Source of the DNA: an uncultured Porphyromonadaceae bacterium
GTDB lineage: Bacteria > Bacteroidota > Bacteroidia > Bacteroidales > Muribaculaceae
NCBI GenBank assembly: GCA_947175645.1
Contig: CAMWNP010000003.1
Location: forward strand, 62,001-126,000
DNA length: 64,000 nucleotides
Reading direction: 5' to 3'
Of the stretch, positions 24,181-56,259 are shown piece after piece (within the stretch, counting starts at the first letter, position 1; each line of letters opens with the position of its first letter). Under the pieces are notes generated by a model. The model ran no database searches and was not told the DNA's origin. It saw only the letters and a list, made by a program, of their open reading frames with translations. The translations under genes and the position numbers were made by a program.

Positions 24181-24247
24181 TTGCATCAGGCATATTCTGA
24201 CAAACCAAAAGAGGGCATGCCAAAACTTTTCATTTTGACACACCCTC
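24181..24247. repeat. Hairpin repeat with conserved flank, copy 2
   Basis: GCATCAGGCATATTCTGAC (24183-24201) precedes an imperfect inverted repeat (24211-24247; GAGGG..TG.CAAAA and TTTTG.CA..CCCTC). It lies 27 nt past the stop of the minus-strand DUF4332 gene. The flank matches copy 3 (47584-47653) more closely than copy 1. Confidence 0.7.
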
Positions 24248-51386: not shown

Positions 51387-51830
51387 TCAGTAGCCGTTCC
51401 ATGGGATTGATGAGGATGCTGAGACCCCGGATTCGCGGATCACCATCAGCAGTCGTGTGGTTGTGGCGGTTGCCATGGATGCGAAATTTTCAGAGGTTTT
51501 CTCGGAAAGGGGAGCGTAGAGAATCTGCAACATGCGTTCAACTATGGCTGATTCCATTATGCTGTCTGTGCCGGAAGGTAGTTTTACCACATTGACCTCC
51601 ACTTCAACAAGGTCGTCAATGGAATTGGGGGGTGTTTTGACTTCCATGTGAGGGAAAATGTCAACGGCCAGATGGCTCAGCGCATCCTGGAGGACGGGTA
51701 TAAGCCCGGCACGGTTGTCCTCTGTAAGATAAGGAGCCACTGCGGAAGGGGTGGCGGTGAGGTGGCTTCGTAATGCGGATAACGCATAGAGTTTTTTGAG
51801 GATGGATTCAATGGATAAGGAAATTTGCAT
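51387..51830 (-). CDS. Orphan protein, 147 residues, end of the capsid island
   Basis: From ATG 51830 the protein reads MQISLSIESILKKLYALSAL and continues with mixed helices and strands; it is mildly acidic, without signal peptide or membrane segment. No family recognised. It overlaps the preceding 144-residue gene by 23 nt, so the two are coupled. Its place beside capsid- and portal-like genes allows a virion role (for instance neck or tail completion), but nothing in its sequence shows this. Confidence 0.5.
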   Translation of the reverse strand: MQISLSIESILKKLYALSALRSHLTATPSAVAPYLTEDNRAGLIPVLQDALSHLAVDIFPHMEVKTPPNSIDDLVEVEVNVVKLPSGTDSIMESAIVERMLQILYAPLSEKTSENFASMATATTTRLLMVIRESGVSASSSIPWNGY

Positions 51831-52242
51831 GACGTTTTCTGTGTGATGAATTGATTGAATAGTAAAGGCGGAGTGCATAGTCCTTTGAGATGAAGAAGGA
51901 GGAAGGGCGCGAGCGGTAGAGAACTTGAGTCAGAATCCTTGTACTGATAATGCCGTCGGGCGATATTCCGTTGCGTTCCCTGACTTTACCGAGAATCTCA
52001 AACCACATCCGTTTGCGCGCGGTGATCCGTTCGGACGATGAGACACCCCGGTTTATGATTTCCCTTAATTTTCTCATTGCGTTGTCCATTGTGACGAAGT
52101 AGGAAGGGGCGGGTTTCCTGATGCTTGCGCTGACAATCACCTCAGCCGAAGGGGTGAACCGGCCGGAGGAAAGTTCCAGCGCGGTTCTCATGCATGTTTT
52201 CATAAAGGCGGTGTCTCGTTTGATTGTTTCTGATCTTTTCAT
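51808..52242 (-). CDS. Orphan basic protein, 144 residues
   Basis: The protein is rich in Arg/Lys/Ser (MKRSETIKRDTAFMKTC at the start, INSSHRKRHANFLIH at the end) and mostly helical by composition. No family recognised; the basic charge would suit nucleic-acid binding. It has its own likely promoter (TATCTTTG at 52285-52278), so it and the 147-residue gene can be expressed apart from the capsid-like genes. Confidence 0.55.
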   Translation of the reverse strand: MKRSETIKRDTAFMKTCMRTALELSSGRFTPSAEVIVSASIRKPAPSYFVTMDNAMRKLREIINRGVSSSERITARKRMWFEILGKVRERNGISPDGIISTRILTQVLYRSRPSSFFISKDYALRLYYSINSSHRKRHANFLIH

Positions 52243-52277
52243 TGTGTGTTATCATAGTTAAATTACCATTTGCGTTG

Positions 52278-52285
52278 CAAAGATA
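52278..52285 (-). promoter_or_regulatory. -7 box for the two orphan genes of the capsid island
   Basis: TATCTTTG on the minus strand, 35 nt before the ATG at 52242. No TTTG is present 19-21 bp upstream, but an inverted repeat (TATGCA and TGCATA) lies about 15-30 bp upstream. Confidence 0.4.
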
Positions 52286-52366
52286 CTATGTCACCTATGC
52301 ATGTTTTTTGCATACGCCGGCTTAAATATGTTAATCTGTTGTGTTAAAAGTGTTAATGAAAATCTA

Positions 52367-52420
52367 AGACCCGATTCCCCAATATTTGTTAATGCTGAGG
52401 AAGCATATCGCCGAGAGATG
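52367..52420 (-). repeat. 54-bp dispersed repeat, copy 2
   Basis: Read on the minus strand this matches 3997-4050 at 52 of 54 positions. It begins 9 nt after the portal-like gene's stop codon (52430) and ends about 80 nt before the next -7 box. Confidence 0.9.
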
Positions 52421-52429
52421 GAGCCGGAT

Positions 52430-53815
52430 CTAAGCCAACAGAATTTTCCGGTCACGCAGATTGAGGAGAGACTTGAATGTTTCCATGAGGTCGAGCAGTG
52501 CTACGGTGGCGTTCTGAACCTGTTGCTGATATCTGTCCGCTCCTACACCGGAGGCGATGTTTTTCCCGCTGATTGCATCGTTTACACCGGATACCTCCTG
52601 AATCAGTTTCATCTGCAGTTCCACGAGTTTTGATGCTCCTGCGTCAAGTCCGCCTGAAGTTATCTGAGTAGGTTGTTTGGAGGAACCCAGGGAACGATAT
52701 GGGATTATGCCTCCGCAGGTGCTCCACTGATGACTGATGTCTCCCCATGAGAGTTGATCGATTTTTGCCTCGGTGGGAAAGAGCAGGACTCCTTTTGCCG
52801 ACACACCCATTATGTGGTCAATCATGGTTATCAGTCGGTTGATGTGTCGCTGCTGGTCAATGACATCCTCCACAAACGGATGTATTTCACCGTCAGTGAG
52901 GGGATAGAGTTTTACCACATAAGGGTGCTCGCCGTGAGGAGCGAAGGAGGGGTGTTCATTGATAAGCGTTCCGTCCGGAGCATAAACTCTGCAAATCCAC
53001 GTGGGTTTATTAGCCATTCTTGTGCGGATTGGTGATTTACCATTAGTCAGACGTTTTTTATTCTCGGCATCGACACGTTCCGATTGTGATGCCGGGAGTT
53101 CGAAACAGCGGTGCAGATGAGTGTCGTGACACCTGATCCGCTCATCCATTTCCAGACTCCATACCTCTATTACCCTGCATCGTCCGGTGGGCGATTCAAA
53201 GAAACGGTGGCCTGAGGGGTTTCCGAGAATCGAGCCGTTGAGTGAGGAATTTGACGGGTCGGAATAGATGTGTCTCAGCCGGTCGATGGAGTCACGGTCA
53301 CCTTTGCCGTAACGCATCAGCAGTTCGCCGATTGACATGTCGCGGAGTTCACCGATAATTTCCACGTCCCAACCGCGGGGGTCACGGATCGCATTGATGA
53401 AGAAATCGGCAGGATTGACATTGTCGACGAAAGTTTCCATAATCCCCGGCCGGCGACATTCACGGGTTATACGCTGCACGGCCACACCGGAAATGAGAAA
53501 CTCTTCAAGCAGCCTGGAGTCCAGTTCCGGCAGGAGATTCCGCCGGTAGACCTCAAGCAGCCTCTCATCTTCAGGCGAAACGGAGTCATTGCGGAATTTA
53601 CCAACGATGGTTTTCACCAACTGGCGAATGACGTTGTTGGTAATAGGGCTTCGACCGGTGTTCTCAACTATTTCATGTTCCGGTCGGTTCCGGCATGAGA
53701 CGGGGTCATACACTATGTCGTCCCATTGCCGGCCGTAGGTGTACTTTTTGAATCGTTCTCTGCGGGATCTCATCTGTTGGCAGTCAAGCCAGGTTTTGTA
53801 AGCAGTGTTGAACAT
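52430..53815 (-). CDS. Phage portal-like protein, short C-terminus
   Basis: The protein has 461 residues. Portal-like features: an N-terminal helical part with RERFKKYTYGRQWDDIV, the central NPADFFINAIRDPRGWDVEI, and especially HPFVEDVIDQQRHINRLITM then IDHIMGVSAKGVLLFP (about 320-355), the stem-helix region of portals from podovirus and crAss-like phages. The late part, SGVNDAISGK through VQNATVALLDLMETFKSLLN, fits the crown-side helices, but the protein stops there, while phage portals of this type usually run at least another 100 residues. It follows the 181-residue gene after 3 nt. Confidence 0.6.
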   Translation of the reverse strand: MFNTAYKTWLDCQQMRSRRERFKKYTYGRQWDDIVYDPVSCRNRPEHEIVENTGRSPITNNVIRQLVKTIVGKFRNDSVSPEDERLLEVYRRNLLPELDSRLLEEFLISGVAVQRITRECRRPGIMETFVDNVNPADFFINAIRDPRGWDVEIIGELRDMSIGELLMRYGKGDRDSIDRLRHIYSDPSNSSLNGSILGNPSGHRFFESPTGRCRVIEVWSLEMDERIRCHDTHLHRCFELPASQSERVDAENKKRLTNGKSPIRTRMANKPTWICRVYAPDGTLINEHPSFAPHGEHPYVVKLYPLTDGEIHPFVEDVIDQQRHINRLITMIDHIMGVSAKGVLLFPTEAKIDQLSWGDISHQWSTCGGIIPYRSLGSSKQPTQITSGGLDAGASKLVELQMKLIQEVSGVNDAISGKNIASGVGADRYQQQVQNATVALLDLMETFKSLLNLRDRKILLA

Positions 53816-53818
53816 AAT

Positions 53819-54364
53819 TTAAATTTTTATCTGAGGCACGGTTTCCCATGCGCGGTTGTCAAACTTGAATATGTCAGGCTCAAGACGCACGGCAGTAAGC
53901 GAAGTAAGCACGGGGGGAGTGCCGGAACGGTCATGCGCGAAGAGGGTTATGAAACGTGGCGAATTCAGGAATGCCACGGGATTCATGCGCCCGGCCCTGG
54001 TGAACGGGTTTGTCTGAAGTTTCATCAGCGGGCTCTCAGGATCGGTTATCAGTGCTACCGGCAATGGATTGCCTTCAATGGTAATACTTATGACGCGCCT
54101 TACATCCTCGGGCAGACTGAGGGTAACTGCACCGGTGCCGGGGATTATTTCCATTATGGTGTCAGCCGAGACATCCTCCGTGTGAAGCCAATCCGGAGGG
54201 GCGGTGTCAATGAGGCGCGCATACCACTGGAGTATATCCTCCTTGAGTTGGGTGTCTATATCCGGACCGTCCATGCGCTCAACCACACAGTCATCGCGCA
54301 ACGGTTCCAGGAAGCGACGTCGTCTGAACTCTTCGAGCAGTTGTTTTAAAGTGTAATTGTTCAT
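53819..54364 (-). CDS. Putative head-completion / connector-like protein, 181 residues
   Basis: The protein has no signal peptide. An N-terminal helical part (LKQLLEEFRRRRFLEPL) is followed by a helix-rich segment (TQLKEDILQWYARLIDTAPP) and a beta-rich half (IIPGTGAVTLSLPEDVRRVI). Size, layout and place between the capsid-like and portal-like genes suggest the adaptor that bridges portal and tail, but the family is not recognised. Three bases separate it from the portal-like gene. Confidence 0.45.
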   Translation of the reverse strand: MNNYTLKQLLEEFRRRRFLEPLRDDCVVERMDGPDIDTQLKEDILQWYARLIDTAPPDWLHTEDVSADTIMEIIPGTGAVTLSLPEDVRRVISITIEGNPLPVALITDPESPLMKLQTNPFTRAGRMNPVAFLNSPRFITLFAHDRSGTPPVLTSLTAVRLEPDIFKFDNRAWETVPQIKI

Positions 54365-54381
54365 GGTAAATTATAAGAAAA

Positions 54382-54493
54382 CGGTGTGTCATAATAATCC
54401 ATCAGTGTGGTTGCGTCTGGAATCCGGCTTTACGGTATGCATCCCTTCAACCTCATCCGCTGCGCCTTGCTTCTGACTTATTATGACACACCG
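54382..54493. repeat. Perfect 16-bp inverted repeat enclosing 80 bp
   Basis: CGGTGTGTCATAATAA (54382-54397) and TTATTATGACACACCG (54478-54493) are exact reverse complements. The 80-bp interior has no gene. The element fills the gap between the capsid-like gene (stop at 54510) and the connector-like gene. No target-site duplication is seen (AGAAA left, CCCCA right), so an RNA structure is more likely than a mobile element. Confidence 0.85.
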
Positions 54494-54509
54494 CCCCAAT
54501 TGGAAAGAA

Positions 54510-55721
54510 TTATTTACATACTATTCGGAGATGGGCACCGGGATGACGCAGCACGATGCATGATGCCTCTGTGACAACAACAGCCTCGGTGTTTCGGACG
54601 CCTGAGGTTCGGAGGTCAAGGCGGTCGATGTGGAGGGGAGTGTGGACATATTTGGTGATGAATTCAGGGTCGATGACCATGCCGTCGTTGCTGTGTCCGC
54701 ACTGATCAAACAGTTCGCTCATGATTATGTAGAGGGTTCCGAACTTTGTGACATACTCCGTGAAGTCGATACCCCAACGGGTTACAACCTGAGTGGCGGT
54801 GACCACTTTAGTGAATTCCAGATTGTGGATCATGCGTATCAAACCGCTGCCGGCAATAAGGATTTTCTTGGATGAACCGCAACTTTCGGTGAAAGCGGTG
54901 CGACAGAGGTCGATCATTTCCGCTTCCTGGAAGGTGTCAGCGCCAATCTGTATTTCTCGTCCGGCCTGCCACCAGATGCCGCCGGTGAGCATGATTTCCT
55001 CATTCTTGTCAGGAGCCATGAATCGTGTGCGGTGACCGAAGAGGAAAGATTTCTCCATTGACAGGCGCATGTCAGTGATTGCCACCTCTTCCTGGTCGTT
55101 GAATGTCCAGTTCACCTCCTTGTCGGCCATGCGCTGGATTGTGCTCTGTTCAATCTGAGTCTTGAAAATCTGGCAGAGGTTACTCTCTTTCTGGGGGAGA
55201 GCCTCGAACTGAGGAGTCTGCACGTCAAGTTCAGTGGCTGCGCGTCCCATGCGTATGATGCTCTTCTTGCTGAGTTCCGAGGCCTGGGGGAAAGTGCCGA
55301 TTCCGTCCACTGAGTTGTTGATGGCGATTACCTTAATGGTGTCCATGTCAACGCTGAGCACATACACAATGAGGTTTACTTTCCGTCCGCCGTTCTGAAT
55401 GGTGACTGCCGGGAAAATGGCGGTGTCGGTGGGCTGGAAAACGCCGGTTTTGTTGAGCGTGAGGTCGGCCACATAGAACCCATTCACCGGTTCGGCAGAG
55501 ATTGAAGCGCTTTTGACTGCTGCCGAAGTAGGTTTTGTGTCGACTGTATAGTATTCGACCTGCATGTTGTTGACCGGACGTGACTGAGCCAGACGTGTGA
55601 TCTGATCAATGGGCGTTGACATAGGTCTGATTTTGACCACACGCTGATCAATTTCATTGCGGAGAAGTTCCGGAGAGAGTTCGCGGGTGTCTGTGGTGGT
55701 GAGTGGTTTGTTGTTAAGCAT
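54510..55721 (-). CDS. Putative major capsid protein (HK97-fold / SU10-DUF5309 type)
   Basis: The protein has 403 residues, no signal peptide. After an N-terminal arm, IRPMSTPIDQITRLAQSRPV (31-50) and QVEYYTVDTKPTSAA (54-68) match the start of SU10-like and crAss-like major capsid proteins. The centre carries repeated strands and NWTFNDQEEVAITDMRLSME (about 205-224) with KSFLFGHRTRF, the end returns to mixed strands (HTPLHIDRLDLRTSG). This is the commonest virion protein, so its presence without terminase, tail or lysis genes is notable. The assignment is by pattern only. Confidence 0.55.
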   Translation of the reverse strand: MLNNKPLTTTDTRELSPELLRNEIDQRVVKIRPMSTPIDQITRLAQSRPVNNMQVEYYTVDTKPTSAAVKSASISAEPVNGFYVADLTLNKTGVFQPTDTAIFPAVTIQNGGRKVNLIVYVLSVDMDTIKVIAINNSVDGIGTFPQASELSKKSIIRMGRAATELDVQTPQFEALPQKESNLCQIFKTQIEQSTIQRMADKEVNWTFNDQEEVAITDMRLSMEKSFLFGHRTRFMAPDKNEEIMLTGGIWWQAGREIQIGADTFQEAEMIDLCRTAFTESCGSSKKILIAGSGLIRMIHNLEFTKVVTATQVVTRWGIDFTEYVTKFGTLYIIMSELFDQCGHSNDGMVIDPEFITKYVHTPLHIDRLDLRTSGVRNTEAVVVTEASCIVLRHPGAHLRIVCK

Positions 55722-55767
55722 AGTGATTAAGAGATTTGAAATGTTTGAAAAATAGAGTTACTTGCGG

Positions 55768-56037
55768 TTAATCCCATACGGAGCGACGTCGGTTTGCCAG
55801 AAACGGCTCCGTTACAACCTCTTCAGGTTTAGGTTCGGGTTGCTCCCCTAAAACGGGTGAATCCATGGCTGCAGTGGCTATTTCAGAACGGGCGCGGTCA
55901 TAACCGCGTTGTTCCGCTTCTGCAAGCATGCTCTCCAGAGCCGCCAGATCAAGAGAGGTGGGAGTGGGGAAGTCCGAGGGTTGCGATTCAGGGATTGGCT
56001 GTGTGGACTCGTTTAAAGTGAGTTCTTCGTTTTCCAT
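55768..56037 (-). CDS. Small acidic protein, scaffold-like, first gene of the capsid operon
   Basis: The protein has 89 residues, rich in Glu, Pro and Ser, with one predicted helix (ALESMLAEAEQRGYDRARSE) and a short basic end (ANRRRSVWD). Acidic, partly disordered proteins encoded just before the capsid gene often act as scaffolds; that is the only ground for the suggestion. It lies 46 nt upstream of the capsid-like gene. Confidence 0.5.
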   Translation of the reverse strand: MENEELTLNESTQPIPESQPSDFPTPTSLDLAALESMLAEAEQRGYDRARSEIATAAMDSPVLGEQPEPKPEEVVTEPFLANRRRSVWD

Positions 56038-56066: not shown

Positions 56067-56115
56067 TGTCAATTGACACTGCAAAGTTACAACCGGATTA
56101 TCCCTTTCCGACAAA
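56067..56115 (-). promoter_or_regulatory. Capsid-operon promoter with operator-like palindrome
   Basis: On the minus strand TTTG (56115-56112), a 22-bp spacer (one longer than usual) and TAACTTTG (56089-56082). The palindrome TGTCAATTGACA (56078-56067) lies 3 bp after the -7 box, over the transcription start, where a repressor would block initiation. The ATG follows at 56037. Confidence 0.5.
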
Positions 56116-56259
56116 AAATTATCACAGGGTCAGCCTTTGGATATCAGACAATTAACATTTCCGGCTATCCGATATTGTGCTGATATATAGAGGTGTGGAC
56201 AGTTGAGGGTCTTTGGATTTAACGACCGTTAATTATACGGAAAAAATCGTTTCGGGCAA

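Follow-up and report, generated by a model that had tools for sequence, protein, structure and literature searches.

The gene transfer agent (GTA) RcGTA has retained a single main cluster together with a siphovirus-like tail. By the criteria given in passages of PMC9662315, GTAs are built of tailed-phage proteins, are endogenised, are inherited vertically, pack random host DNA, have an own genome that is not wholly packable, and deliver DNA to cells. RcGTA and other recognised GTAs are presented there as phage-derived, distributed over several loci (five in RcGTA), and mostly vertically inherited, co-diversifying with the host. FpGTA of Faecalibacterium is described, in passages of PMC12946183, as the first human-gut GTA and also as the first whose morphology is podovirus-like; Bacteroidales appear in those passages in connection with lateral transduction and in remarks on transfer. 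The present analysis concerns a window, that is, the whole analysed stretch of 64,000 nucleotides, from an uncultured Porphyromonadaceae bacterium, in which six minus-strand genes (51387..56037) encode a capsid of SU10 type, a portal of P22 type and a head-to-tail adaptor, along with a short protein resembling a scaffold and two further small ones that are conserved. These genes are likely to be the head module of a dispersed, host-kept GTA-like element, and its origin is best read as descent from a short-tailed SU10/crAss-like phage that entered an ancestor of several Bacteroidales families.

As described in passages of PMC12946183, FpGTA resembles the present set in belonging to a gut anaerobe, in its podovirus-like large terminase (TerL), portal, scaffold, capsid and candidate small terminase (TerS), and in possessing a second locus, which in FpGTA holds tail and lysis genes and in one strain lies at a distance of about 125 kb. 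It differs in being organised as two compact operons in Faecalibacterium and in having had its particles and their DNA of about 9 kb demonstrated (same passages). The Bacteroidales set, in contrast, has an SU10-type capsid and loci that are often single genes or pairs, extends over several families, shares promoters between loci in part of its genomes, and is known as genes. It differs from RcGTA in that capsid and terminase usually lie apart and in that the founder looks like a short-tailed phage. Among free phages, SU10 and crAss001 are alike in capsid family (SU10_MCP) and in adaptor-like fold. A homologous major capsid protein (MCP), 35-37% identical to that of the window, is found in all three Bacteroides phages BF1-TP2, BS-TP4 and BKO1-TP3. 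Two of the three carry scaffold, adaptor, portal, TerL and the small gene g5 described below, as do many IMG/VR contigs; these phages differ in their records of 64-68 kb, their many further genes, and their phage-length portal and scaffold.

The six-gene cassette is confirmed as real. Its capsid gene, g2 (54510..55721, minus strand as are all six; 403 amino acids), scores 177.6 bits against Pfam SU10_MCP (PF17236; E 5.3e-52), for which the curated cut-off is 24.1, is 37% identical to the MCP of phage BF1-TP2, and weakly matches the solved major capsid protein 9in6_M (E 5.8e-5). The portal g4 (52430..53815, 461 amino acids) reaches 70.6 bits against P22_portal (PF16510; cut-off 26.1; E 1.3e-19) and matches phrog_156 (E 4.6e-37). 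Compared with the aligned phage and outgroup portals it lacks about 90-140 C-terminal and 30-96 N-terminal residues, and a search of its sequence against the PDB returned one unrelated match and nothing else. The adaptor g3 (53819..54364, 181 amino acids) adjoins MCP at 17 of 20 family loci, and structure comparison of its AlphaFold model gives an adaptor-like fold, as in SU10 and crAss001. The short acidic scaffold-like protein g1 (55768..56037, 89 amino acids) is named for its position, which matches that of a 247-331-residue protein of the outgroup families (n=10) and of phage-like loci, and for its C-terminal RRxSxWD, which is similar; BLAST matches it at 11 of 20 family MCP loci. An earlier note on this DNA had proposed major capsid, connector-like, portal-like and scaffold-like genes here, and SU10_MCP, the adaptor model and P22_portal bear this out. 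The proteins thus derive from tailed phages by Pfam and PHROGs matches, structure comparison and phage homologues.

The same note had found no packaging or tail genes in what it took for a lone island. At the level of the genome this is wrong, since a second locus, headed by a matching promoter, encodes a probable tail protein followed by a terminase with intact ATPase and nuclease motifs. This TerL lies on contig C19, downstream of a gene designated c5, and matches the PHROGs terminase large subunit (E 1e-22). With the terminase of a Bacteroides phage, annotated there as tail spike, as first query, 54 of 60 family genomes gave a homologue, the own genome among them; a query from the own genome found TerL in 28 of 30. 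Walker B, EST motifs and three nuclease acids are retained in all 28 host TerLs, and Walker A shows small variants in two (G003, G097). Two Bacteroides phage genes matching the large terminase (L061 15975-18002 and L062 15886-17982) are annotated 'tail spike protein'. The c5 protein, of about 830 amino acids, is encoded near TerL at 15 of 20 TerL loci fetched, in 12 directly upstream on the same strand. No profile matches c5 of the own genome; a homologue in G527 (L141) weakly matches virion and tail-appendage profiles (E 2e-4 and 0.04), and c5 is probably a tail protein.

Two further cassette genes connect the loci. g5 (51808..52242, 144 amino acids) is all-helical, with a predicted model of six helices (pLDDT 93.6), and is 15-28% identical to 27 aligned relatives. 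Its homologues occur on 75 of 80 viral contigs and adjoin TerL on nine of 11 contigs listed. A phage homologue matches phrog_27246, a match that PHROGs did not give for g5 of the window itself. A fold search with the model matched neither PDB nor viral structures at E 0.001, and identification of g5 as small terminase by fold was rejected; by position it is a candidate for that role. g6 (51387..51878, 163 amino acids) has homologues at 10 loci in the first clustering, adjoining either portal or TerL, and weakly matches four phage contigs (E 1.5e-5 to 5e-3). Because g5 and g6 stand next to the portal in some genomes and next to TerL in others, the capsid and terminase loci appear to form one system.

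In part of the genomes, promoters common to both loci point the same way. The capsid operon is headed by the element TTTGTCGG-N18-TAACTTTG (56082..56115, minus strand), and in the own genome the capsid and c5-TerL operons are both preceded by TTTGTCGG, with TAAYTTTG 18-19 bases on. The pattern TTTGTCGGN{13,21}TANNTTTG has exactly two matches in the 3.17-Mb own genome and none in the reversed control; TTTTTTGTCGG occurs once in the window, at 56108-56118. Longer, differing sequences are common to both loci of the same genome in G003, G054, G058, G007 and G131. In a 14-genome test the mean own-pair score was 16.6 against a shuffle maximum of 15.3, the own pair being strictly best in six; in a 26-genome test within-genome similarity was 13.40 against a shuffle maximum of 12.38. 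None of 20000 shuffles reached the observed mean in either test. The true pair of the own genome (G000) ranked fourth in the 26-genome test, and its match is shown by the pattern search instead; that of G098 scored 25.5 in the 14-genome test and was missed by the sequence stretch used in the larger one. A portal promoter match in G024 was set aside, as it looks like an unrelated palindromic repeat.

TerL is separated from MCP by more than 30 kb, or sits on a different contig, in 23 of the 28 genomes with terminase, some contigs in the latter cases ending near MCP or TerL (e.g. G014). It is within 2 kb in two genomes (G098, G022) and about 7-13 kb away in three (G003, G044, G329). The greatest distances along a single contig are 2.5 Mb (G058), 0.96 Mb (G007) and 0.74 Mb (G097), the first of which bears on whether the element could pack the whole of its own genome. 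In G310 the ribosomal L21 and L27 genes separate TerL from the portal. With this dispersal, and with neither att repeats nor a tRNA seen at the island, as the earlier note had also reported, the set is fully endogenised over several loci. A fumarase gene recognised by Pfam is found no more than 4.3 kb from MCP at nine of the 13 MCP loci of the outgroup, representing five families, and at a distance of 0.9 kb from the terminase of the own genome; this suggests a single ancestral site.

In true phages the related genes are arranged compactly. On viral contigs TerL and g5 are oriented opposite to scaffold, MCP, a small gene and the adaptor; in 80 such contigs, many of them cut by contig ends, MCP was counted in 79, g5 in 75, scaffold in 75, adaptor in 64, TerL in 58 and portal in 48. 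The capsid is 30-39% identical in 77 of the 80 contigs kept. Among the elements found, L250 (IMGVR_UViG_2681813420_000001) is the best model of the founder: compact and phage-like, it has an MCP 47% identical, together with TerL, g5, scaffold, adaptor, fibre-like and lysozyme-like genes. A g6 homologue suspected in it by eye was dropped (E 0.15). G372 has, beside its dispersed set, a second compact one (locus L248 on C32: tail protein, portal, TerL, scaffold, MCP 37% identical), which is probably a resident phage of the founding kind.

An MCP match is found in 228 of 248 genomes of the family, which is probably Muribaculaceae, and is strong in 208 (E 5.1e-27 or better); a portal match is found in 232. 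MCP is usually single-copy per genome. The order-level search matched 26 of 294 genomes, comprising five in the family, 19 in six other families (E 5.5e-111 or better) and two divergent ones; the 248 unlisted rows of that search may include negatives from the same six families. At phylum level four of 247 genomes matched, namely the own genome and three weakly. A split portal as a general feature of genus g4 was rejected, as each of the 11 g4 loci fetched gives one unbroken tblastn match and only G053 is frameshifted.

The MCP tree contains 52 rows, 34 from hosts and 18 from phages or viral contigs (13 of the 80 viral loci among them), and as a whole carries long-branch warnings. Three of the four other families with at least two rows each form one clade, and f57 is mixed with f64. 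Host rows group together (83/80), with two IMG/VR contigs inside, L250 and L249; the latter is a 10-kb contig showing the family gene order in an inverted double. Trees of LepA, MCP and TerL from 27 genomes have 10 of 24 splits in common for every pair, against at most 5-6 under within-group shuffles (0 of 2000 as high). At 95% bootstrap MCP and TerL each conflict once with LepA and never with one another. Distances correlate marginally between LepA and TerL (r 0.40, 59/2000) and strongly between MCP and TerL (r 0.62, 0/2000), as if the latter two had their own common rate history. The common splits indicate mostly vertical inheritance and co-diversification with the host, within the limits of one marker gene for the host phylogeny, one well-supported conflict per LepA comparison and the LepA-MCP distances considered below. 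The genes of the set are under purifying selection, with dN/dS of 0.02-0.12 for MCP, 0.07-0.11 for TerL and 0.07-0.14 for the portal, and 0.02-0.20 across computable pairs; many dS values approach saturation, and three pairs yielded none.

A regulon is seen in G058, where a 25-base promoter pattern has 20 sites with at most two mismatches (three allowed; control 0). All 20 sites agree in their first 23 bases, and each is followed by TAnnTTTG at one fixed distance. The element heads the capsid operon, c5-TerL, an M15 peptidase matching the phrog_894 endolysin (E 8e-26), a gene whose lipoprotein-like product has a membrane stretch at its C-terminus and is here read as possibly spanin-like, 13 DUF6291-like genes, and a gene read as putative rlmH; two of the 20 sites have no clear downstream gene. 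The 13 DUF6291-like paralogues (loci L331-L349) are scattered over one chromosome under this near-invariant capsid/terminase element. They were called by a short motif, and of two sequences tested against Pfam one fell just under the cut-off and one had no match. A single-sequence DUF6291-like query of seven genomes, run without positive control, found no match and shows little. In G476 and G329, of two other families, a holin (PF05105) and an endolysin (phrog_894, with PF08291 in G329 only) lie downstream of a fibre gene.

The element is proposed to work as follows. In a few cells a common regulator would fire the dispersed promoters; a small head would be built from capsid, scaffold, portal and adaptor; and the terminase, with g5 as candidate small subunit, would fill it with chromosomal DNA by the headful, since there is no replicating element left to pack. 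Cells would then lyse and the particles carry DNA to kin, lysis being proposed on account of the M15 endolysin and spanin-like lipoprotein under the common promoter in G058 and of the holin and endolysin downstream of the fibre gene in two genomes. A fuller proposal is offered tentatively: a GTA may have been fixed in the ancestor of at least seven Bacteroidales families and now be a scattered regulon, whose regulator would read a species-variable element matched between capsid, terminase and lysis operons and in G058 would also drive the 13 DUF6291-like genes.

Several observations weigh against a host-kept, GTA-like element. MCP matches are absent in 20 of the 248 family genomes searched and weak in another 20 (E 4e-5 to 4e-13; 16 in genus g30, four in g4). 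G053 has a frameshifted portal (L058 11276-12555) and no terminase found, G005 likewise yielded no terminase, and G059 has a stop within it, so loss of the system is possible. The sharing of promoters is uneven: just eight of 26 genomes have the own pair strictly best, two of these pairs (G009, G020) lie in stretches that need not be promoters, no capsid-terminase sharing is seen in several genera or in genomes G017, G025, G008 and G023, and separately placed portals have no clear sharing with MCP or TerL (n=6, n=4). The Mantel distance correlation between LepA and MCP is not significant (r 0.12, 315/2000). Tail fibre and lysis genes were not identified in the own genome; the G058 M15 query found no match in seven genomes including it, a result of little weight for a single-sequence query without positive control. 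As far as can be read from the genes the working is GTA-like, and particles and DNA transfer are predicted.

Losses of this kind would be expected of a decayed prophage, whose leftover head genes drift towards deletion, as would the lack of integrase, replication and lysis proteins among the eight proteins scanned at the island. Against decay stand the intact frames and promoter already stressed in the earlier note, now joined by low dN/dS and by a promoter pattern matched at the terminase operon (between loci in part of the genomes), the catalytic motifs kept in all 28 terminases, and retention of the set in six other families as well as in most sampled family genomes. Decay, which the selection data already weaken, is quite unlikely. 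A living temperate phage or satellite infecting nearly every member, with presence due to reinfection and not inheritance, is very improbable: related phages do exist, as the viral contigs, compact L250 and the second copy in G372 attest, but the set is usually present once and broken over chromosomal loci with host genes between, the capsid and terminase trees have more splits in common with LepA than shuffles do, and the fumarase gene recurs near most of the outgroup capsids and the own terminase. Nor does the island resemble the compact genome of a temperate prophage, with its integrase, replication genes and att sites: the eight proteins scanned include no integrase, and neither att repeats nor a tRNA were seen. 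No integrase, replication or hijacking genes of a satellite were recognised in it beside its partial head genes, and the terminase lies at another chromosomal locus. Of the three options listed in the earlier note, host-kept, GTA-like head genes are therefore well supported, while simple decay and a satellite are not.

The head might instead be reused as a compartment, a protein-delivery shell or a phage-disturbing decoy without DNA transfer. Encapsulins are phage-derived shells kept by the host; they consist of a shell protein with a cargo enzyme and are not known to have a portal or terminase. Shortened family proteins would suit such reuse: the median scaffold length is 133 amino acids in the family (n=11) against 254.5 in the outgroup families (n=10) and 269 at phage-like loci (n=5), and the median portal length is 460 (n=22) against 622.5 (n=6) and 651 (n=4); some cut pieces are included in these counts. 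In genus g7, moreover, all three loci fetched have MCP without an adjacent portal. However, portal and adaptor, needless for a storage shell, are retained, as are the ATPase and nuclease motifs of the terminase; an endolysin stands under the common promoter in G058; and the presence of portal, adaptor and terminase in the own genome sets the element apart from encapsulins. Reuse of the head is unlikely, and a GTA-like element remains preferred.

The cassette is flanked by lepA on one side and a DUF4919 gene on the other. This synteny, for which the earlier note had suggested a search in other Bacteroidales, is not general: among 30 loci, several of them cut by contig ends, DUF4919 flanks the cassette only in the two closest relatives, G014 and G134, and lepA in none. 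As a key to the system lepA synteny was rejected, being seen in the closest relatives only. The MCP-adaptor gap holds a hairpin-forming spacer of 143 nucleotides (54366..54508) with a fold of -45.7 kcal/mol (z -3.8) and a perfect inverted repeat GGTGTGTCATAAT, whose 13-base ends lie at 54383-54395 and 54480-54492; it may be a small inserted repeat. At 24232-24244 stands a relative of the end that differs by one mismatch. Upstream of g5, a putative -7 box of a second promoter, TATCTTTGC (52277..52285, minus strand), was read from the sequence on the basis of TAnnTTTG, which is presumed to be the consensus. None of seven proteins tested reached an NCBIfam cut-off.

No earlier account of a Bacteroidales GTA was found among the top-ranked titles in the open-access PMC literature, and a dispersed Bacteroidales GTA appears undescribed in the literature searched. 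Muribaculaceae dominate the mouse gut, according to passages of PMC6381624. If a domesticated particle for DNA transfer is present in most Muribaculaceae, then gene flow in a major gut group has a main route that would have been overlooked, and tools looking for gene clusters would miss its scattered parts. The promoter signature offers a means to find the remaining parts, and the system is a test of how phage genes persist as a scattered regulon.

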